Source: a virus. From it: a stretch of 21,561 nt of DNA. Numbering within the stretch: position 1 is the first letter of the stretch; each line of letters opens with the position of its first letter. The stretch spans positions 1 to 21,561 of IMG/VR virus record IMGVR_UViG_3300031658_000164, one strand, 5' to 3'. The notes below the pieces were generated by a model. It did no database searches. It saw only the letters and a program-made list of their open reading frames with translations, and was not told where the DNA came from. The position numbers and the translations under genes were made by a program. Below, in pieces: positions 3,400 to 21,561 of this stretch.

Positions 3400-3430
3400 G
3401 GTCATATATGTTATAAATACATATATGACC
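3400..3430 (+). repeat. Perfect 11-bp inverted repeat with a late promoter in its loop
   Basis: GGTCATATATG (3400-3410) is exactly complementary to CATATATGACC (3420-3430). The 9-base centre holds TATAAATA. The right arm contains the ATG of the next gene. It may be an operator for a dimeric regulator, a transcript hairpin, or both. Confidence 0.8.
3412..3419 (+). promoter_or_regulatory. T4-type late promoter TATAAATA heading the curli-like operon
   Basis: An exact octamer is followed by CATAT and then ATG at 3425. If transcription starts about 6 bases after the octamer, as in T4-type late promoters, the transcript begins at the A of that ATG. I see no other promoter between here and 9953, so it probably drives the whole curli-like/cyclase run. 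The same TATAAATACATATATG string occurs on the minus strand at 21019-21004. Confidence 0.7.
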
Positions 3431-3721
3431 GAAATCTTTGAAATAATTGCGCAGGTCGGTGCCCCCATTGCTGGGGCTCTCGCTATGGGTGCTTTTATTT
3501 TCCTCATTATAAAACAAATATTAGAAGGTCTAATTGATAAGATTAAGACCCTTACTATGTTTTGTGAATCCTTAGAAAATAGGGCCAGAACAATGGCCAA
3601 TGAAATGATCAAGATTGATATGTTGGTCAGTTCCGCTTTAGAATTAAGACCCGATATAGAAAGAGTTGCTCGAGCAGAGAACTTTGTTGAAGATGGCAAA
3701 GTTGATGTACGGAGAGATTGA
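3425..3721 (+). CDS. Single-TM/coiled-coil protein A (98 aa)
   Basis: The 98-residue protein has one hydrophobic segment at about residues 13-32 (APIAGALAMGAFIFLIIKQI), preceded by a short N-terminus. A long amphipathic helix follows (about 33-75). The geometry resembles small phage membrane proteins, including some holins, but no family is certain. It aligns without gaps over about 63 residues with the next gene, so the two are probably paralogues. The ATG sits inside the right arm of the promoter palindrome with no SD, so it may be translated from a leaderless message. ATG 3485 is a less attractive alternative because it would cut the TM segment. The TGA overlaps the next ATG. Confidence 0.75.
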   Translation: MTEIFEIIAQVGAPIAGALAMGAFIFLIIKQILEGLIDKIKTLTMFCESLENRARTMANEMIKIDMLVSSALELRPDIERVARAENFVEDGKVDVRRD

Positions 3722-3978
3722 TGGGTGAAGTTAATGGTATAGTCCAAGCAATATCAGATTATGGTTTTCCTATAGTAGCATGTGTAGGGTTTGGATATTT
3801 CCTCTTTTATATATGGAAATTTATTAGTAACGAGATAGAACCAGAACTTGATAAAATGCATTTTGCTTTAATAAAACTAATTGATAGAGTACGAATGCTC
3901 GACCAAGACTTGATTCGATTGCAACAAAAAGTGAATGTGGTGTTAGAGTATAAAGAAAACGAGAAAAAGAAATCATGA
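3721..3978 (+). CDS. Single-TM/coiled-coil protein B (85 aa), paralogue of the preceding gene
   Basis: I choose ATG 3721, which overlaps the previous TGA (TGATG), rather than the TTG at 3718. A TM segment at about residues 15-35 (GFPIVACVGFGYFLFYIWKF) is followed by an amphipathic helix (ALIKLIDRVRMLDQDLIRLQ). This pattern recalls an uncharacterised protein in cyanophage-type genomes. It shares the G-x-P-I start of the TM and an R-x-R pair at equal spacing with protein A. Its stop overlaps the CsgF-like gene by ATGA, so it is co-translated with the secretion genes. A role as a holin, an inner-membrane anchor or an accessory of the curli-like machine is possible. None is shown. Confidence 0.8.
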   Translation: MGEVNGIVQAISDYGFPIVACVGFGYFLFYIWKFISNEIEPELDKMHFALIKLIDRVRMLDQDLIRLQQKVNVVLEYKENEKKKS

Positions 3979-4457
3979 AAATAACAGGAACACATTTGGG
4001 TATATTAGTAATAGCATTATATTTTGTATCACAAGCCGCTATGGCTGATGGCATAGTATTTAAGTTTAAGAGTCCATCATTTAGTGGACAGGGAACTTCT
4101 GCTCACTATTTAACTATTGAGAACCAAGAGAAGTCTAGGCAAGAAAAGATACAAGAAGACGTAGAAGCTGCTATAGAGAAAGCAGAAAGAGATGCTAATA
4201 ACACTACCCAAGCTAAGTTTTTAAGAAACTTGGAGAGTAGAATATATGCACAGATTGCTAAACAGTTAGTTGATAATATGTTTAACAACACTGAAAGCTC
4301 TACTTCAGGCTTCTTTGAGATAGAAGGTAACTCTATCACATACGAAACAATTATCGGTGGTGGCCCAGACGGAATGGATATCATAAGAATAACAGTCATT
4401 AGTGAAGATGGAACTACTACAACACTTGATGTCCCTATAGGTGCAGGTGGCTTTTAA
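3975..4457 (+). CDS. csgF: CsgF-like curli assembly factor
   Basis: The 160-residue protein has a signal peptide (residues 1-24, cleavage after AAMA). The mature N-terminus DGIVFKFKSPSFSGQG matches the CsgF opening (GTMTFQFRNPNFGG in E. coli from memory). In E. coli this part inserts into the CsgG channel. A Lys/Glu-rich helical insert follows at about 50-75. The segment at about 80-104 (KFLRNLESRIYAQIAKQLVDN) corresponds to the CsgF 'LDNFTQAIQSQIL' helix. The C-terminal beta domain (ETIIGGGPDGMDIIRITVIS) corresponds to the CsgF tail that mixes with the nucleator. It immediately precedes csgG with a one-base overlap. In bacteria CsgF couples the CsgG pore to fibre nucleation on the cell surface. 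Confidence 0.85.
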   Translation: MKITGTHLGILVIALYFVSQAAMADGIVFKFKSPSFSGQGTSAHYLTIENQEKSRQEKIQEDVEAAIEKAERDANNTTQAKFLRNLESRIYAQIAKQLVDNMFNNTESSTSGFFEIEGNSITYETIIGGGPDGMDIIRITVISEDGTTTTLDVPIGAGGF

Positions 4458-5350
4458 TGAAACTCTTTTACGGAGTGCTTCTGTTAGCTTTAACAGGTTG
4501 TGCCGGTATACCATCTATAGATGATAGTTGCACTACTGAATTTATGCAAGCATTCGGAGAATGTATAGAAGATGCTGTGGTGGTTACATTACCAGCATCT
4601 GAAAAACTGGCTAATTTACCACCAGCACGTGAGAAACCAGTTGTTGCGGTATATAAGTTTGAAGACCTGACAGGCCAGAGAAAGAGTAGAGAGAACCTTG
4701 CAGACTTCTCTACAGCAGTAACTCAAGGAGCAGATGCATTTGTTATTGATGCTTTAAAAACTGCAGGAAGGGGTACTTGGTTTAGAGTAGTAGAACGTAA
4801 GAATTTAGAAAATTTAATTAAAGAAAGACAGATTATTAGATCGGCCAGAGAAGAGTTTGAAAAGAAAGATTCGGATAAGAAGTTACAGCCGTTACTCTTT
4901 GCTGGTATTATTATTGATGGTGGTATTATAGGATATGATACTAACCTAGAAAGTGGAGGACGGGGAGCAAGATACTTAGGTATTGGTTCATCTGTTCAGT
5001 ATAAGAGGGATTCGGTAATCGTGAGTTTAAGGGCAACCTCAACTCTCACGGGTGAAATTTTGTTGAACGTACAGACGAAAAAATCTATCTTGTCTGTAGG
5101 TGGTGGTTATGATGTGTTTAGATTTGTCGATATGGACACTAAACTTGTTGAGATAGAAGACGGTAATGCCTTTACTGAGAGTGTGACTTATGCTACACGA
5201 GCAGCGATCGAAGAGGCAGTACTAGAGTTAATATACCAAGGCCATGATAGAGGTTACTGGGTAATAGAGAATGGACACAGACACCCCCATCAGCATGATG
5301 GGACAAATGATGTCCATTCTATAAAGGGAGAAGAGAATGAAGATGAATAA
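4457..5350 (+). CDS. csgG: CsgG-like outer-membrane curli secretion lipoprotein
   Basis: The 297-residue protein has a lipoprotein signal with lipobox LTGC (Cys15). It is followed by the CsgG domain: VVAVYKFEDLTGQ, DFSTAVTQGAD, a WFRVVERKNLENLIKERQII block, IIIDGGIIGYDTN, GGRGARYLGIG and FRFVDMDTKL. All are recognisable counterparts of E. coli CsgG, which is a nine-subunit outer-membrane channel. The constriction loop (about 75-84, RKSRENLADF) keeps the Phe (F84) but has Asp83 and Glu79 where E. coli has Asn55 and Tyr51. An extra Cys-containing segment (about 20-40) follows the lipidated Cys. The C-terminal tail is His-rich (GHRHPHQHDG). The length is close to the family's ~277. Confidence 0.93.
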   Translation: MKLFYGVLLLALTGCAGIPSIDDSCTTEFMQAFGECIEDAVVVTLPASEKLANLPPAREKPVVAVYKFEDLTGQRKSRENLADFSTAVTQGADAFVIDALKTAGRGTWFRVVERKNLENLIKERQIIRSAREEFEKKDSDKKLQPLLFAGIIIDGGIIGYDTNLESGGRGARYLGIGSSVQYKRDSVIVSLRATSTLTGEILLNVQTKKSILSVGGGYDVFRFVDMDTKLVEIEDGNAFTESVTYATRAAIEEAVLELIYQGHDRGYWVIENGHRHPHQHDGTNDVHSIKGEENEDE

Positions 5351-6194
5351 AAACTTCATGTTCGTGATGTTTGGACTTATGGGAATGTCAAATGTAATTG
5401 CAGGTGATGCGAACGATAATGAAATATTTATTGCCCAGACCGGAAACAATGTTGAGCTTACTATTCAACAAATCGGTGCAGGTAACAAATATGGTGGTGA
5501 TAATTTTAGTGGAACAGCTGTTGATATGACGATGACAGTCTCTGATTCGTATCTGGATTTAACACTTGATGGTGATTATAATAAAATGTTTGGTACAATC
5601 GCAACGAGTGGTTCTACTATTAATAACTTTATTACTGGTAACTATAATACATGGAACCAAAAGATTGGTGTAGCAAATACTGCTGACACTATGACCATTG
5701 ATTCTGCAATTACTGGAAACACAAACAGTATCGTATTTAGAGCTGGTAATGACGATGATACTTACAATCTAGCAACTCCACTGTATGGACAAACAGTAGC
5801 CGAGCAATTCTGGACAGTAAGTGGTAGTACTTGGTCAAGAACTAATAGTGGTCAAGCAGCCTTTTGGCAAACTTGGAATCCTACTGCAGGTTCAGCTGAT
5901 AGTTTGGATATGGATTTGGATGTAAATGGTTCAGATAACACCTTGAATGTATTTGTTAACTCTACTAATGCTACATTTGATTGGGACGTAACTGGTTCAG
6001 ATAACTGGATTCAAACTACAATGGAAGATGGTGCTGATAACAGTCAAACGGTTGGTGTGACTGGTTCTTACAATTATATATTCGTAGGCCAAAATACCGG
6101 TTCTACAGTCGGAGTCACTAACAATGCAATACTTGATGCAACATTTAATACAACACATTCGGACATTAATATTATACAGTCTGACGCTAACTAG
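5337..6194 (+). CDS. Secreted curlin-repeat (amyloid-like) protein 1
   Basis: The 285-residue protein has a signal peptide (about 1-23, ending VIAG). The mature protein opens with a double curlin-type repeat at residues 28-50: N-x5-Q-x-G then x7-QQ-x-G. Looser TGSDN/NGSDN/TGNYN turns follow at about 100, 127, 198, 220 and 243, each followed by alternating hydrophobic strands. This is consistent with a beta-solenoid. It has no Cys and is strongly acidic and Asn/Thr/Gly-rich. It begins inside the last 14 bases of csgG with AGGGAG 6 bases upstream. It is the probable cargo of the CsgG pore. It is longer and more degenerate than CsgA (~151 residues), so its fibre-forming ability is inferred. Confidence 0.8.
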   Translation: MKMNKNFMFVMFGLMGMSNVIAGDANDNEIFIAQTGNNVELTIQQIGAGNKYGGDNFSGTAVDMTMTVSDSYLDLTLDGDYNKMFGTIATSGSTINNFITGNYNTWNQKIGVANTADTMTIDSAITGNTNSIVFRAGNDDDTYNLATPLYGQTVAEQFWTVSGSTWSRTNSGQAAFWQTWNPTAGSADSLDMDLDVNGSDNTLNVFVNSTNATFDWDVTGSDNWIQTTMEDGADNSQTVGVTGSYNYIFVGQNTGSTVGVTNNAILDATFNTTHSDINIIQSDAN

Positions 6195-7287
6195 TATATT
6201 TCTTATGGGTTCGGTTTCGGCCGAGTCTATAGGAGGTATTACTGAACAGAAAGGCGTTGCTTCACTTGTCAGAAGTGGGGGTGAAGAGATTACTGTGTCG
6301 GTTTCATCTGTACCCGGAATTGAATTAAAGGATACTGCCGTTACCGGTAATGGTAGAATGTTGATTGAGTTCCTAGATGAAGAGCAACTATCTATTATAG
6401 AACACACTCGGATCTATATAGATGAAGCATATTATGATCCAGACCCATCTAAATCTAAGATGGCAATTCGTATGGTACAGGGAACTGCTAGGTTCACTTC
6501 AGGCCGTGGGAAAAGAATTAAAAAATCCAATGTGCAATTATCAACACCAACTGCTGAGATAGCTATACTCGGTACTGACTTTACTACAACCATTGATGAG
6601 ATAGGTCAATCACTTATTATTTTACTACCAGATGAAAAGACTGGTTTGTCTTCAGGTAAAATTATCATAAGCAATGCTGGTGGTACTGTAACCTTAGAAG
6701 AAGCATATCAAGCGTCTACTATATCATCATACGATAAGAGTCCAAGTGCACCCGTAAAATTGTCCGGAATAGATCCTAGTATGATTAGTAATATCTTTAT
6801 CGTTTCGGAACCCCAAGAAATTAAAGAAGTTAAACAACAAGAGGGCCTTCTATCAGAGAATGATAATGTTAATATACTAGATGTTGACTTCCTTGAATTT
6901 AATGAATTAGAGAAAGACTACTTAGAGTATGATGAACTAGAATTTAGTGAACTTGATATTGATTACTTAGCTGTAGATTTTCTGCAAGACGTATTAGATG
7001 TTCTTCAAGCATTAGATAAGGGTACTTCCCTAGATAGAAGCGCTTTAAGTTCGGGTATCAACCTTCAAGGAACTAAAGTTGGGTTTGATACAGATACCCA
7101 ATATAATAGTATAGTAGATAAAGGTGCAGATACCGTTAAATTCTTTAGGGATGTTGATGGAGTTATAAGTATAAGTATGTTACTTTCACAATCTGCTACA
7201 ATTAGAACGGTTTCCGATCAGAAAGAATCTGAAATAATATTAGGAGACGGACAGGGTATTATAATTAATATCACGCAGGTACAATAA
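6124..7287 (+). CDS. Secreted FecR-domain protein with an acidic repeat tail
   Basis: The 387-residue protein has a signal peptide (about 1-33, ending SVSA) that is encoded out of frame within the last 71 bases of the curlin gene. A FecR domain spans about 44-170. It contains GVASLVRSG near the start, MLIEFLDEEQLSI (about 79-91), and the hallmark STPTAEIAILGTDF (140-153), corresponding to the family's TP-x-A-x-x-(x)RGT-x-F with Leu-Gly in place of Arg-Gly. The second half holds an unusual acidic-aromatic repeat (about 252-292; units like DFLEFNELE and DYLEYDELE). Secreted FecR proteins of this type are often beside CHASE2 cyclases in bacteria, as here. It probably acts in the periplasm or at the outer membrane. 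ATG 6136 is an alternative start. Confidence 0.82.
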   Translation: MQYLMQHLIQHIRTLILYSLTLTSIFLMGSVSAESIGGITEQKGVASLVRSGGEEITVSVSSVPGIELKDTAVTGNGRMLIEFLDEEQLSIIEHTRIYIDEAYYDPDPSKSKMAIRMVQGTARFTSGRGKRIKKSNVQLSTPTAEIAILGTDFTTTIDEIGQSLIILLPDEKTGLSSGKIIISNAGGTVTLEEAYQASTISSYDKSPSAPVKLSGIDPSMISNIFIVSEPQEIKEVKQQEGLLSENDNVNILDVDFLEFNELEKDYLEYDELEFSELDIDYLAVDFLQDVLDVLQALDKGTSLDRSALSSGINLQGTKVGFDTDTQYNSIVDKGADTVKFFRDVDGVISISMLLSQSATIRTVSDQKESEIILGDGQGIIINITQVQ

Positions 7288-8060
7288 TGAATAAGTTTTT
7301 AAATTACATAGCACTATCTATTTGGGTACTATATCTAGTAGTCGCATGTCAGCCCGCAAAGGCCGATAATGAAATATATGTTACACAAACAGGGGACAAC
7401 CTTAGATTAGAATATCAGCAACTAGGAGATAACAATAAGATAGATACCGTATTATCTGGTTATCAACTGGATACTGCAATACTTCAGGAAGGTGATAGGA
7501 ACCAAGTATTGAGAAAGTCCCAAGGCATTAGTGGAGATTATAATCAAGTAGTAGTGGAACAATGGAATAACTCTACAAGCACAGATTACAATAGAATATG
7601 GATTGATATAGATGGCGATAATAATGGAGTAGATGTAGGACAGGGTTGCAAATTCTATTATAGTACATCAACCACATGCAGTAGAGATACACACGAACAA
7701 GCAGGCCATAATATGGAAATCAATATTGATGGTAGTAATAATGGAATACGTGGCGGCCAAAAGGCTGGTAGTGCTAATCCAGATCATGATCTAGTAATGG
7801 ATATCAATGGAGATAATAATGGTGTATTCTTTACGCAAGCAGGCTCTGGTTCTAAAGATTTAGATTTAACTATTAACAACGATGGTAATTCTGTAAGTAT
7901 TCAACAGTTGTATGGTACACATACAGCTACTATAGAACTCGATGGTACTAGTGGAACTGCATTAGACTTATTACAAAGCGGTACTGGAACACAATCATAT
8001 ACCTTAATGCAGAACTGTCTTACTATTGGCGGATGCTCTGTCTCGGTAGTGCAGCAGTGA
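7287..8060 (+). CDS. Secreted curlin-repeat (amyloid-like) protein 2
   Basis: The 257-residue protein has an N-terminal signal. VVAC (Cys21) could be a lipobox, and a PAKA site at 23-26 could be used by signal peptidase I. The mature start (residues 28-50, NEIYVTQTGDN...QQLGDNN) is nearly the same double curlin repeat as in protein 1. Clear repeats follow: DGDNNGVDVGQG (109-120), DGSNNGIRGGQKAG (148-161), NGDNNGVFFTQAG (174-186) and NDGNSVSIQQ (198-207), giving the pattern G-(D/S)-N-N-x-(I/V)-x3-Q-x-G. Two Cys pairs (121/131 and 244/250) suggest disulfides. It ends in VVQQ. It may be a nucleator (CsgB-like) to protein 1's fibre subunit. That role is inferred. Confidence 0.82.
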   Translation: MNKFLNYIALSIWVLYLVVACQPAKADNEIYVTQTGDNLRLEYQQLGDNNKIDTVLSGYQLDTAILQEGDRNQVLRKSQGISGDYNQVVVEQWNNSTSTDYNRIWIDIDGDNNGVDVGQGCKFYYSTSTTCSRDTHEQAGHNMEINIDGSNNGIRGGQKAGSANPDHDLVMDINGDNNGVFFTQAGSGSKDLDLTINNDGNSVSIQQLYGTHTATIELDGTSGTALDLLQSGTGTQSYTLMQNCLTIGGCSVSVVQQ

Positions 8061-8138
8061 GTGTTAGAAACTACGGATATTATATATTCCGAAAATACGG
8101 ATACCGAAACTCCAGAATAGGAACTAGGGTAGACATAT

Positions 8139-9953
8139 ATGTATAATTGGAAGGTAGTATTGATTACTATTCTCTTGCTTGTTACAGTAAGAATCCAAGA
8201 CCCTAAGTTATTAGAACAGTTTCGTTTAAACTACTTTGATTCCCTACAATCATATCAAGAACCGATCAAGGCCGATAATATAGTCATAGTAGATATTGAC
8301 GTAAAGGCCTTAGACACCTATGGACAATTCCCATTCAGTAGAGATATATACGCCGACTGGTTGAACTCTAGCCCAGAAAATAATGCATATGTGTTCAATA
8401 TGGGATTCACTGAGGCTGATAGATTCGGTAAAGACTCTGATCTTGCTGAGGCTATGGGAACTAGAGATGTAATACTATCATCCTTTGTGAGTAATAAATC
8501 CCAGGGTGATAAGCCGCCTAGGGGTTTCGGTAAACTTGGAAAGGGTGATCCGTCAGATTGGTTGTATTCATATAAGGGTATGCGTACTTCGGTCGTGGCT
8601 CAATATGCAGAAGGCGTAGGAGCTGTTACAGTTGCACCTTCGGTAGATGGTATAGTCAGAGAGTCACCCTTAGCTATCCTAGCTAATCAACACCTTTGGC
8701 CTTCCATAGCATTAGAGATATTACGAGTCTGGGAGTTCCAGCCTAACCTAGCAATTAAGATTAAAGACGCTGGAGTAGAGTGGGTAAGAATGGGAACTTT
8801 ACCACCAATGTATACAACGCCGAACTCTAATGTTCAAATAGCATACTGGAACGAATATGAGCGTATATCATTTGGAGACCCACTACCCGATGAAAAGATA
8901 ATCATACTAGGATTGAGTGCAGGGGGATTAGTCAACCCAGTGCCGACTCCGACTGGCGCTATGTTACCACACGACATTCAAGCACATTTAATATCTACTG
9001 TAGTAAATGGTATTCAAATTCAAAGACCATGGTATGCCGATCAGCTTGAACTTCTGCTGATTATCGGACTATCATTAATGATATTACTTATTGTATATCA
9101 AACTCCAACTTATATCTCAGCAATTGCATCACTAGGAATTATGGGTGGAACAATGTATACTGGTTATCATTTTTGGATGACAGAACTTTTACTGATAGAT
9201 GTCTTATTCCCTACAGTAACGGCCTTTATCGTATTCACTCATGCTTCATTCAATAGGTTCTATGTCACATATAAGCTAAAAGAACTGATTAAAGGTCAGT
9301 TCGGAACCTACCTATCTCCAGATATGGTCTATATGTTACAGAAAGATCCGTCTCTGTTAGCACTCGGCGGAGAAAGAAAGGAGATGTCCTTCTTGTTTAT
9401 GGACATTTGTGGGTTCACCCCCATATCAGAGTTCTATAAGAACAAAGACGACCCCGAAGGATTGGTGGTATTGGTCAATGAATTCCTAGATGCCATGACC
9501 AAAATCATACTAGCCAATGGTGGTACTATAGACAAATATATGGGCGACTGTATTATGGCGTTCTGGAATGCTCCATTAGCATGTGAGAACCATGCAGAGA
9601 TGGCAGTTAAATCATCAATAGAGATAGAGGCAAAGACTAATGAACTTAAAGCAGTATACGAAGAAAGGGGACTTCCAGATATTAATGTTGGTACTGGTGT
9701 CAATACCGGTGATTGCATTGTTGGGAATATGGGCAGTGAGTCGAGATTTGATTACTCTGTTATCGGAGACGCAGTCAACCTCGCAGCAAGATTGGAGGCT
9801 ACCGCTGCTAGGGGTGATTACCTAGAGTACAAGACAATCATATCCTCTTTCACCAGAGACCAACTTCCAGCAGAGTATATCTGTGAGGAGATTGGCAATA
9901 TCAAGGTGAAAGGCAAAGACGAACTTATAACCATATATTCTCCTAAGTTATAA
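8139..9953 (+). CDS. CHASE2-domain class III adenylate cyclase
   Basis: The 604-residue membrane enzyme has an N-terminal TM (about 4-19), a periplasmic CHASE2 sensor (about 25-295; VIVDIDVKALDTYGQFPFSR near its start), three TM segments (about 304-372), and a cytoplasmic cyclase domain (about 415-600). The catalytic residues are all present: metal Asp422 in FLFMDICGFT and Asp470 in DKYMGD, Lys466, and Asn547 and Arg551 in GDAVNLAAR. Ser540 sits at the adenine-specifying position, which is Asp in classical and Thr/Ser in class IIIb enzymes. It should convert ATP to cAMP in response to a periplasmic signal. Cyclase activity on GTP cannot be excluded. It is the last gene of the curli-like run, 78 bases after the curlin gene, and a weak AGGG SD is present. 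Confidence 0.92.
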   Translation: MYNWKVVLITILLLVTVRIQDPKLLEQFRLNYFDSLQSYQEPIKADNIVIVDIDVKALDTYGQFPFSRDIYADWLNSSPENNAYVFNMGFTEADRFGKDSDLAEAMGTRDVILSSFVSNKSQGDKPPRGFGKLGKGDPSDWLYSYKGMRTSVVAQYAEGVGAVTVAPSVDGIVRESPLAILANQHLWPSIALEILRVWEFQPNLAIKIKDAGVEWVRMGTLPPMYTTPNSNVQIAYWNEYERISFGDPLPDEKIIILGLSAGGLVNPVPTPTGAMLPHDIQAHLISTVVNGIQIQRPWYADQLELLLIIGLSLMILLIVYQTPTYISAIASLGIMGGTMYTGYHFWMTELLLIDVLFPTVTAFIVFTHASFNRFYVTYKLKELIKGQFGTYLSPDMVYMLQKDPSLLALGGERKEMSFLFMDICGFTPISEFYKNKDDPEGLVVLVNEFLDAMTKIILANGGTIDKYMGDCIMAFWNAPLACENHAEMAVKSSIEIEAKTNELKAVYEERGLPDINVGTGVNTGDCIVGNMGSESRFDYSVIGDAVNLAARLEATAARGDYLEYKTIISSFTRDQLPAEYICEEIGNIKVKGKDELITIYSPKL

Positions 9954-19783: not shown

Positions 19784-20413
19784 TTATATAAGTCCAGATG
19801 GTATTGCGCTTCTCAATGCTGACATTGTAGAAGAGAAAGGTCCTTCTGGTACATAGTTATCGTAACTAAATGTTACACTAATTTTCTGGACAGCACTTTC
19901 ACTATTATTGTCCAGAGTAATTCCAGCTACAGTAGTAGGAAAGGCATTTTCTAACCTAATACCATATACTGGAATATTCTTCTCATTCAATTGCTGTATT
20001 ACAACATCTGAAGTAAAATCTTTTTTAAATTTTGCACGGTATGTTTCAGTATTAAATACTTGTTCTAGCCAATCGTCAAACATAGTTTTCATGTAGTAAT
20101 CATTGGTAAGTAAAAAGGAACACGTCACATCTTCATTTATAAAACCATACGGTATCTTTACTGCATGTTTTTCTGCTTGATAATCCAGTGTTGCAATCTG
20201 TCTGCCTGGAATAGTGACCGTCTCACATAAGAGAGAAATATCCCTAGGGTCATTAACCATAGATTTAAGTCCACCACCAGATGTAATTGCACCTATGAGG
20301 CCTTTGACACTTAACAGGTTACCTTGAGGTGGAGTGAAGATAACTTGAAATCTATTTGTCTTTGCAAGTCCACCTCGTTTACCTATTGTGCTCTTTAAAT
20401 TGTCAATGGACAT
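19784..20413 (-). CDS. Tail-tube-like protein (gp19/gp54 fold family), 209 aa
   Basis: The 209-residue protein has GGLAKTNRFQVIFTPP near the start and LLCETVTIPGRQIATLDYQ (about 61-79). Then come VKIPYGFINEDVTCSFLLTN, a helical FDDWLEQVFN, and ENAFPTTVAGITLDNNS leading to ISVTFSYDNY. This order (N-x-F-x-V, x-PGR-x, Y-x-(D/E)-V-x-(F/C)-x-F, FPT, SV-(S/T)-x-SY) is shared by T4-type tail tube and tube-initiator proteins. With gp26 next to it, a baseplate tube-junction (gp54/gp48-like) role is as likely as the main tube gp19. An AAGGGGGT SD lies 6 bases upstream. It overlaps the upstream stop by one base. Confidence 0.7.
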   Translation of the reverse strand: MSIDNLKSTIGKRGGLAKTNRFQVIFTPPQGNLLSVKGLIGAITSGGGLKSMVNDPRDISLLCETVTIPGRQIATLDYQAEKHAVKIPYGFINEDVTCSFLLTNDYYMKTMFDDWLEQVFNTETYRAKFKKDFTSDVVIQQLNEKNIPVYGIRLENAFPTTVAGITLDNNSESAVQKISVTFSYDNYVPEGPFSSTMSALRSAIPSGLI

Positions 20414-21006
20414 TATTTACCCCCTTGGTAAACTTTTCGGGAATCAGCCCAGGCAGATCTAGCGCTCTTCTTCTTAAACTGTTGTATTGGTAGATATATT
20501 GCTGTCTCCCAATCTGTCATTGGTACTCTTGACATCTGCGACTTAACATGAGATACTAAATATCTTTTAAAGCATGGTTCAAATTCTTTGTACTTCTTAA
20601 CACCATTTAACAAATCATAGGTTAATCGGTTTAAACGAGTATCTGGTTTTAAATTCTTGGGTGCAAGTTTAAATAATTCATTTAATAATCTTGCTCTAGC
20701 AACAGGGTTAACATAATGGAGATTTAATCCATAGAATCCGCCTGGTGCAGGCCCTACAATAATAGTTAATGGAAATTTATCATAGTACGGTAGTGTTTCT
20801 TTTGTCTTAGGGTCATAGAAATACATTATCATATCACCCACACGAATTTTAGTCTGTTTCTCTAGTGCATCATCCTTAAGAATTTTACCTCTCGCAGGAA
20901 TAGCAAGCTCCTTTACCTTACTGGTAAACCATTCTTCTGATTTAGGAGTCCTAGATTGGATCCCTGCTCTGAATGCCGCGGCACTTAATTTATCGAATAT
21001 AGACAT
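20413..21006 (-). CDS. Conserved T4-like late protein, unassigned (197 aa)
   Basis: The 197-residue basic protein carries SEEWFTSKVKEL, a YFYDPKTKETLPYYDKFPLT block (about 62-81), GGFYGLNLHYVNP and EPCFKRYLVSHVKSQMSRVP, then a WETAIYLPIQQFKK ending. These blocks recur in marine T4-like phages in a late head or tail cluster, as I recall. I considered DNA end protector gp2, its T4 neighbour beside gp4, but the sequence I remember for T4 gp2 does not resemble it. The start ATG 21006 lies 5 bases after a TATAAATA and has no SD. It is probably structural or assembly-related. Confidence 0.75.
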   Translation of the reverse strand: MSIFDKLSAAAFRAGIQSRTPKSEEWFTSKVKELAIPARGKILKDDALEKQTKIRVGDMIMYFYDPKTKETLPYYDKFPLTIIVGPAPGGFYGLNLHYVNPVARARLLNELFKLAPKNLKPDTRLNRLTYDLLNGVKKYKEFEPCFKRYLVSHVKSQMSRVPMTDWETAIYLPIQQFKKKSARSAWADSRKVYQGGK

Positions 21007-21011
21007 ATATG

Positions 21012-21019
21012 TATTTATA
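21012..21019 (-). promoter_or_regulatory. T4-type late promoter TATAAATA (minus strand)
   Basis: The minus strand reads TATAAATACATATATG, with the ATG of the 197-residue protein 5 bases after the octamer. This is the same 16 bases as at 3412-3427. A transcript starting about 6 bases downstream would be leaderless. Confidence 0.7.
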
Positions 21020-21466
21020 CTATCCTTTTATTAGTTTAATACCAAGATTAGTTAAAGTGTCCTCTGTCCACACTTGAAACTTCCATCCCTTATGGTCTGC
21101 ATATTGCTGCGCAGCTTCCCACTTAGAGGTGTTCTTAATGTATGATGTCACCTCATTGATGTATCTTTTAGTTTTACGAGCGCCTTTCTTTGGTGGCATG
21201 GTTTGACTCTTGGGTTTAATCTCAATCAATATAATCTCTCTGTTATCGAGTTCGATTAATAAGTCTACATAGTATCTATGAAGTTTGTTATCGGTTTTAC
21301 ACTTATACGGGACAACAACCTCTTCACTATTCCATTTTTTAACTCTAGGATTAGACTCACACCATCTAAATGCCTGTCTTTCCCATAATGAACGATAAAC
21401 GACTTTACTGGCATCACCCATATACTTCCGTTTGTCTTTAATTGTGTATTTCCCTCTGTAAGCCAT
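21020..21466 (-). CDS. 4: gp4-like head completion protein with nuclease-like motif
   Basis: The 148-residue basic protein (T4 gp4 ~150) contains YMGDASKVVYRSLWERQAFRWC (positions 15-36), SEEVVVPYKCKTD, HRYYVDLLIEL, ILIEIKPKSQTMPPK and KWEAAQQYADHKGWKFQVWT. All are family blocks. The arrangement Glu29, Asp68, Glu82-x-Lys84 matches a TnsA/PD-(D/E)xK nuclease core, known to be similar to this family. gp4 completes filled heads so that tails can join. A late promoter lies 26 bases upstream on the minus strand, and the SD is weak. Confidence 0.9.
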   Translation of the reverse strand: MAYRGKYTIKDKRKYMGDASKVVYRSLWERQAFRWCESNPRVKKWNSEEVVVPYKCKTDNKLHRYYVDLLIELDNREIILIEIKPKSQTMPPKKGARKTKRYINEVTSYIKNTSKWEAAQQYADHKGWKFQVWTEDTLTNLGIKLIKG

Positions 21467-21474
21467 TATAAATA
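21467..21474 (+). promoter_or_regulatory. T4-type late promoter TATAAATA (rightward)
   Basis: This exact octamer directly abuts the gp4 start codon on the other strand and lies 37 bases before the ATG at 21512. It is the likely promoter of the rightward late gene cut by the window edge. Confidence 0.75.
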
Positions 21475-21491
21475 CCTATATAGTAAATTAT

Positions 21492-21499
21492 TATTTATA
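21492..21499 (-). promoter_or_regulatory. T4-type late promoter TATAAATA (leftward, for gp4)
   Basis: The plus strand reads TATTTATA, the complement of an exact TATAAATA, ending 25 bases before the gp4 ATG. It points at the rightward promoter 17 bases away, so the two transcripts overlap. Confidence 0.78.
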
Positions 21500-21511
21500 A
21501 GGGTAATATAT

Positions 21512-21561
21512 ATGGCTGAAAAGGATAAAGAAAACAGTGATGTAGATAAATTCGATGGCGG
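21512..21561 (+). CDS. Start of a rightward late gene, 3' part outside the window
   Basis: ATG 21512 opens MAEKDKENSDVDKFDG and runs off the window edge. The late promoter at 21467 precedes it, with AAGGG 8 bases before the ATG. The visible 16 residues are highly charged. Too little is present to name the product. Confidence 0.65.
   Translation, partial: MAEKDKENSDVDKFDG

Follow-up and report, generated by a model that had tools for sequence, protein, structure and literature searches.

In the 21,561-nucleotide stretch of viral DNA analysed here (the window), two genes on opposite strands begin in the same way, sharing 16 bases from a putative late promoter to the ATG, which raises the question of whether transcription of such genes could start on the initiation codon itself. 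The explanation favoured here, and considered quite probable, is that T4-type late promoters are fused to the start codon, generating a conserved class of leaderless late mRNAs that would carry 0-1 nucleotides ahead of the AUG (3 nucleotides for some gp25 genes). Host RNA polymerase with a phage late sigma factor of the gp55 type would recognise NATAAATA at -13 to -6, and transcription would begin six bases past the octamer, on the A of the ATG, or most likely one base farther where the gap between octamer and ATG is 6 bases. Because the predicted start is the A of the ATG, the mRNA would begin with AUG, would lack a Shine-Dalgarno (SD) sequence, and would be translated through recognition of the 5'-terminal AUG. 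The spacing and its conservation, the absence of an SD and a start-site signature are established by the comparisons described below, and the label 'late' is applied on the basis of the octamer and of homology with T4.

The two start regions and the identity of the window

The sequence TATAAATACATATATG has two exact matches in the window, at 3412-3427 on the plus strand and at 21004-21019 on the minus strand, confirming the 16-base identity from promoter to ATG that a sequence-only reading had noticed for the genes at 3425 and 21006. With up to three mismatches allowed there are 6 matches; 100 dinucleotide shuffles averaged 0.99 and never reached 6. The ATGs of both exact matches open ORFs. 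On the minus strand this is gp2, the DNA end protector (20413-21006, 197 aa; phrog_429, E=5.6e-52, with tblastn matches to annotated gp2 genes), and on the plus strand a 98-aa protein of unknown function (3425-3721; phrog_18771, E=6.8e-25). The gp2 start consists of an exact T4-type late octamer, TATAAATA (21012-21019), which is kept in orthologs as NATAAATA, a CATAT spacer of conserved length and variable letters (21007-21011, predicted -5 to -1), and the ATG (21004-21006), whose A at 21006 is the predicted transcription start from T4 numbering (PMC2988020) and the base-6 signature discussed below. The phrog_18771 start has the same exact octamer (3412-3419) and 5-base spacer (3420-3424), with the A at 3425 as the predicted start. 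The 5-base gap is free of an SD at both genes, as the sequence-only reading had also stated.

The common spacer letters are a coincidence within a conserved layout, since CATAT accounts for 6 of the 127 distinct contexts of 5 bases, the probability that two random sites share a spacer is 0.035, and the nearest relatives carry different spacers (GTAGT at gp2; CATGT or ACTAT at the 3425 gene). The idea that the two genes share a start region through homology or duplication was likewise rejected: the octamer layout is all that they have in common, and the spacers of their nearest relatives differ. The octamer TATAAATA itself occurs seven times in the window, versus 3.34 expected, at 511, 929, 3412, 15481 (within an ORF) and 21467 on the plus strand, and at 21019 and 21499 on the minus strand.

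The window also encodes gp32, a tail tube protein, a baseplate hub protein and, at 3975-9953, a curli-like cluster of CsgF, CsgG and a FecR-domain protein followed by a CHASE2-adenylate/guanylate cyclase (Pfam); two more proteins of this cluster have no Pfam match. The order of the CsgF-CsgG-FecR-CHASE2/cyclase block is the same in Pelagibacter phage HTVC008M and Methylophilales phage Melnitz, and among named phages the 3425 gene is found only in HTVC008M and Melnitz records (6 records). On the basis of this block order and of the distribution of the 3425 gene, the window is assigned to the HTVC008M/Mosig/Melnitz group of T4-like marine phages, as a short fragment of one such phage; a late sigma factor of the gp55 type and its co-activator gp33 are annotated in all three isolates. 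Two phrog_18771 paralogs lie side by side in the window (3425-3721 and 3718-3978), the second overlapping the first and having a weak holin-family match.

Spacing between the octamer and the start codon

Gaps were counted from each NATAAATA to the first ATG, no more than 45 bases away, that opens at least 40 codons. For HTVC008M and Mosig together, the histogram for gaps 0-12 reads 0, 0, 1, 0, 0, 16, 0, 1, 3, 0, 1, 1 and 0, with a broad hump beyond, and the 16 of 101 octamers at gap 5 compare with 4 of 384 for eight permuted octamers (1e-8). In 13 contigs, gap 5 was found for 57 of 335 N-octamers versus 7 of 1003 permuted octamers (Fisher 1e-28), and removal of the gp2 and phrog_18771 families leaves 41 of 158 octamer-linked starts at gap 5, in 29 families. 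The IMG/VR loci were picked via gp2, phrog_18771 and gp25 proteins, so that pooled IMG/VR totals are not a random sample (the pooled count leaves out 11 loci that overlap G001-G010); the fairer counts are those of the isolates and the 13-contig count minus the query families, although 10 of the 13 contigs were still found via those genes. In Melnitz, only 3 of 42 sites have gap 5, gp2 among them, a number that weighs against the leaderless explanation but exceeds the 2 of 409 for permuted octamers (p=0.007). A blind count of 7-mers at -12 to -6 of ATG-initiated ORFs in HTVC008M and Mosig ranked ATAAATA first (16) and AGGAGAA next (8). All 19 gap-5 sites of the isolates fall on annotated CDS starts (HTVC008M 9/9, Mosig 7/7, Melnitz 3/3), the genes including gp2, a gp25-type wedge protein, the tail tube cap, the tape measure gene and csgF in HTVC008M, and gp2 and a tail tube protein in Mosig.

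ATGs that open a reading frame number 3, 10, 6, 3 and 2 at gaps 0 to 4 and 138 at gap 5. The count of octamer-to-ATG distances across relatives, which had been proposed as a check, thus yields a sharp peak whose left edge is the smallest gap that accommodates the whole AUG. Could such a peak arise from accidental neighbours? Most of the genomes counted have a GC content of 33-40%, and coincidence already accounts for the letter-for-letter match between the two window sites; both points speak for chance. The permuted octamers, the conservation of the layout in diverged orthologs, and a count of 0 of 65 in the equally AT-rich T4 lead to its rejection, leaving it a negligible probability.

A fixed distance, taken by itself, would also be compatible with an ATG that acts as an initiator element of the promoter, without selection for a start codon at that distance. 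Here, the ATG at gap 5 opens at least 40 codons in 138 of 144 contexts, as compared with about half at other gaps, and promoters of the more distant class have no preference for ATG at bases 6-8; the initiator element is rejected on these grounds as very improbable. For GTG and TTG there is no gap-5 peak (4 versus 138 open ATG frames).

The predicted transcription start

In the T4 review the first T of the late octamer is numbered -13 (PMC2988020), which places +1 at base 6 past the octamer. Independently of this numbering, among 245 distinct promoters of the long-gap class in this phage group, a pyrimidine-purine step is most enriched at bases 5/6 (109 versus 59 expected, z 7.7), with secondary peaks at 7/8 and 12/13, and base 6 is preferentially A. 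A purine occupies base 6 in 24 of 32 T4, 19 of 20 Syn9 and 21 of 27 S-PM2 promoters. Short-class promoters have the A of the ATG as base 6, and 120 of 124 distinct gap-5 contexts carry a T or C immediately before it. Gap 5 is the smallest gap at which a transcript from base 6 holds the whole AUG, and the short class begins exactly there. A start about 6 bases past the octamer, on the A of the ATG, as the sequence-only reading had supposed, would agree with both the T4 numbering and the base-5/6 step, the latter being a sequence signature. The 5' ends themselves, expression late in infection and leaderless translation of the messages are inferred.

SD sequences and two late promoter classes

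Most of the remaining octamer-linked starts are farther off, ~14-44 bases from the octamer, and would make up another late promoter class of these genomes, mostly with an ordinary SD leader. An SD word at -18 to -5 was found in 9 of 139 short-gap contexts versus 154 of 247 long-gap contexts (p 7e-30), and shuffling of the long-gap leaders gave a mean of 27 with an SD word. The same phages normally use an SD, and the short class is a separate mode from the SD-led late genes. The gap-5 peak, together with the absence of an SD in the short class and its presence in the long class, strongly supports leaderless (0-1 nt) late messages. Against this explanation, the most abundant structural genes of the isolates use an SD, with SD-like leaders for gp23, gp18, gp19 and gp20 in HTVC008M and for gp23, gp18 and gp20 in Mosig; the short-gap mode is therefore not needed for strong expression.

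Both classes are adjacent in the window, with short-class octamers at 3412 and 21019, and long-class octamers at 929, 21467 and 21499. On the plus strand, the octamer at 929-936 is followed after 16 bases by the ATG at 953, the SD GAGGG lying between them at 942-946, and all 13 records of the family of its gene have gaps of 16-24. The plus-strand octamer at 21467-21474 precedes the ATG at 21512 by 37 bases, with the SD AAGGG at 21499-21503. The minus-strand octamer at 21492-21499 belongs to gp4 (ATG at 21466, gap 25, weak AGG), a family in which 0 of 75 octamer-linked starts have gap 5-6. The opposite-strand late octamers in the region 21466-21512 serve divergent genes, and if transcription begins at base 6 past each octamer, the starts expected at 21480 (plus) and 21486 (minus) would give divergent messages whose 5' ends overlap by ~7 bases.

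Conservation of the short gap in gene families

For gp2, two of 80 loci (L066 and L067) were omitted, the match having begun inside the gene. Among the other 78 orthologs the gap is 5 in 63 and 6 in 12 (75/78 at gap 5-6), and the three orthologs with no octamer have a close AAGG. From 1 to 4 codons separate the gp2 ATG from the first residue that matches the query, at an unchanged gap of 5-6, indicating that the octamer tracks the ATG and not the coding sequence.

The gene that precedes gp2 is gp4 (head closure, phrog_218), the stop codon of which directly adjoins the gp2 octamer, and the gp4 frame ends with the stretch AAAGGA, ~17-22 bases ahead of the gp2 ATG. This arrangement is suggestive of read-through, whereby the octamers are real, the first gene is translated from longer mRNAs by stop coupling or from a distant SD, and the short transcript serves the downstream genes only. 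If the AUG were irrelevant to the short transcript, gaps 0-4 should be as frequent as gap 5, which they are not. Moreover, AAAGGA is missing in more distant gp2 relatives, and the upstream AAGG is lost in many that retain gap 5-6. Read-through is accordingly held to be unlikely as the general explanation.

For phrog_18771, NATAAATA is found at gap 5-6 in 68 of 80 orthologs (gap 5 in 62, gap 6 in 6), with a further 3 at gap 7 or 8; the octamer is absent in the remaining 9, which count against the leaderless explanation.

In the case of gp25, 21 of 23 of the first loci already had gap 5-6 before 80 orthologs, mostly at new loci, were fetched with the HTVC008M protein; several loci repeat one sequence, and the 80 comprise 41 distinct contexts. 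Their gaps are 5 in 36, 6 in 20, 7 in 3, 8 in 19 and 9 in 2, with none farther and none octamer-less, such that 56 of 80 have gap 5-6 and 80 of 80 gap 5-9. One subgroup of these loci (L258-L337 being all 80) keeps gap 8, and suggests a conserved 3-nucleotide leader because the pyrimidine-purine step remains at bases 5/6. The gp25 gene of Mosig has gap 8 and that of Melnitz an SD leader. The orthologs at gaps 8 and 9, and the SD leader of Melnitz, stand against the leaderless explanation. An unusual start-site architecture is known for T4 gene 25 (PMC3014915).

Such cases raise the possibility that the class is in general nearly leaderless, with a leader of 1-4 nucleotides and SD-independent initiation. 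The 12 gp2 orthologs at gap 6 and the gap-8 gp25 subgroup would fit; the main peak, however, is at exactly 5, and the T or C that precedes nearly every gap-5 ATG is as expected if +1 is the A. A short leader throughout is thus judged improbable, slightly more so than read-through, and fusion of the promoter to the start codon remains the preferred explanation.

The octamer at position 511

The plus-strand octamer at 511-518 lies 3 bases before the ATG at 522 of a phrog_1679 gene (522-683). It had been cited as a third example of the arrangement, and it is indeed close to an ATG, but with gap 3 instead of 5 it falls outside the leaderless layout and counts against that explanation. Of its relatives, G005 has gap 5 at the phrog_1679 start, and L083 has one ATG at gap 3 and another at gap 6. 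The tandem ATGs of L083 are located near 7479-7492, and in the window the position of the second reads AGG, so that only the gap-3 ATG remains. Given these gaps in the window and its relatives, the gene at 511 probably depends on read-through, which it would exemplify, or on another start.

Translation and significance

If transcription starts on the AUG, the octamer-N5-ATG class may act as a late-only translation lock, a suggestion that we put forward tentatively and regard as doubtful. Here, an internal AUG with no SD would be silent or poorly used on earlier read-through messages, and only transcription with the late sigma factor would place the AUG at a 5' end and make the message readable. 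The phages may also tune host ribosomes for leaderless messages, as ribosomal protein S21 is annotated in Mosig (L163-L165), HTVC008M (L166, L249) and Melnitz (L338-L340). Mosig and Melnitz also annotate tmRNA and peptide deformylase, and the phages therefore carry several translation-related genes.

Both leaderless mRNAs and T4 late promoters are already known, and the new part would be their fusion as a conserved class. In the accessible parts of the open PMC literature, no report was found of leaderless late genes in T4-like phages. A survey of pelagimyophages describes late-promoter prediction as unsuccessful (PMC7029224). For Melnitz, 15 late promoters have been listed (PMC9004378), with no discussion of start-codon spacing found in the portion of that paper available. 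If the explanation is correct, leaderless translation would be a routine and conserved part of the late programme of widespread ocean T4-like phages, isolates of which grow on SAR11 and OM43. The simple rule of NATAAATA plus 5 bases plus ATG would find late promoters and fix gene starts, and the late genes with and without an SD in one genome would provide a natural pair for asking how ribosomes choose.

Comparison with known systems

T4 late promoters, which depend on gp55, gp33 and gp45 (PMC2988020), have the same octamer TATAAATA and a purine preference at base 6. In T4, however, start codons are at least 12 bases downstream, and an ORF begins at gap 5 or 6 for 0 of 65 octamers. The cyanophages S-PM2 and Syn9 share the same relaxed late octamer, NATAAATA (PMC2984593), but gap 5 is found for 0 of 38 octamers in Syn9 and 1 of 59 in S-PM2; in C48C1 it is found for 1 of 34. 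The combination of TATAAATA, 5-6 bases and ATG is found nowhere in Syn9, S-PM2, P-SSM2, KVP40, phiM12 or DLP6, and once each in T4, off annotated gene starts, and C48C1, at an annotated start. The gp2 start regions of nine other T4-like phages (raw stretches for KVP40 and SRB7757) have no octamer within 10 bases of the start; in C48C1 the octamer is more than 20 bases upstream, and SD-like stretches are present in X1, BUCT-ZZ01, ACP17 and VR7. The short layout is essentially missing in T4, Syn9 and S-PM2, and a trait of all T4-like phages is not supported.

Alphaproteobacteria are known for their ready use of leaderless messages, and in one of them, Caulobacter, 375 leaderless mRNAs are translated as efficiently as leadered ones (PMC4117421). 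As predicted for the phage class, these have the transcription start on the start codon and no SD, but they are cellular genes with host promoters and measured 5' ends, whereas the class described here has a phage late promoter and predicted 5' ends. The late promoters of phiKZ (TATG; PMC4666361) similarly overlap their own start site, but with another polymerase and another motif, and +1 is the G of TATG; in the present class the octamer is conserved and the bases before the ATG vary (GC, AC, TC and others). Finally, T4 gene e achieves late-only translation through an RNA structure avoided only by transcripts with late starts (PMC3014915). The lock considered here would reach the same end by different means, with a 5'-terminal AUG in place of an RNA structure.
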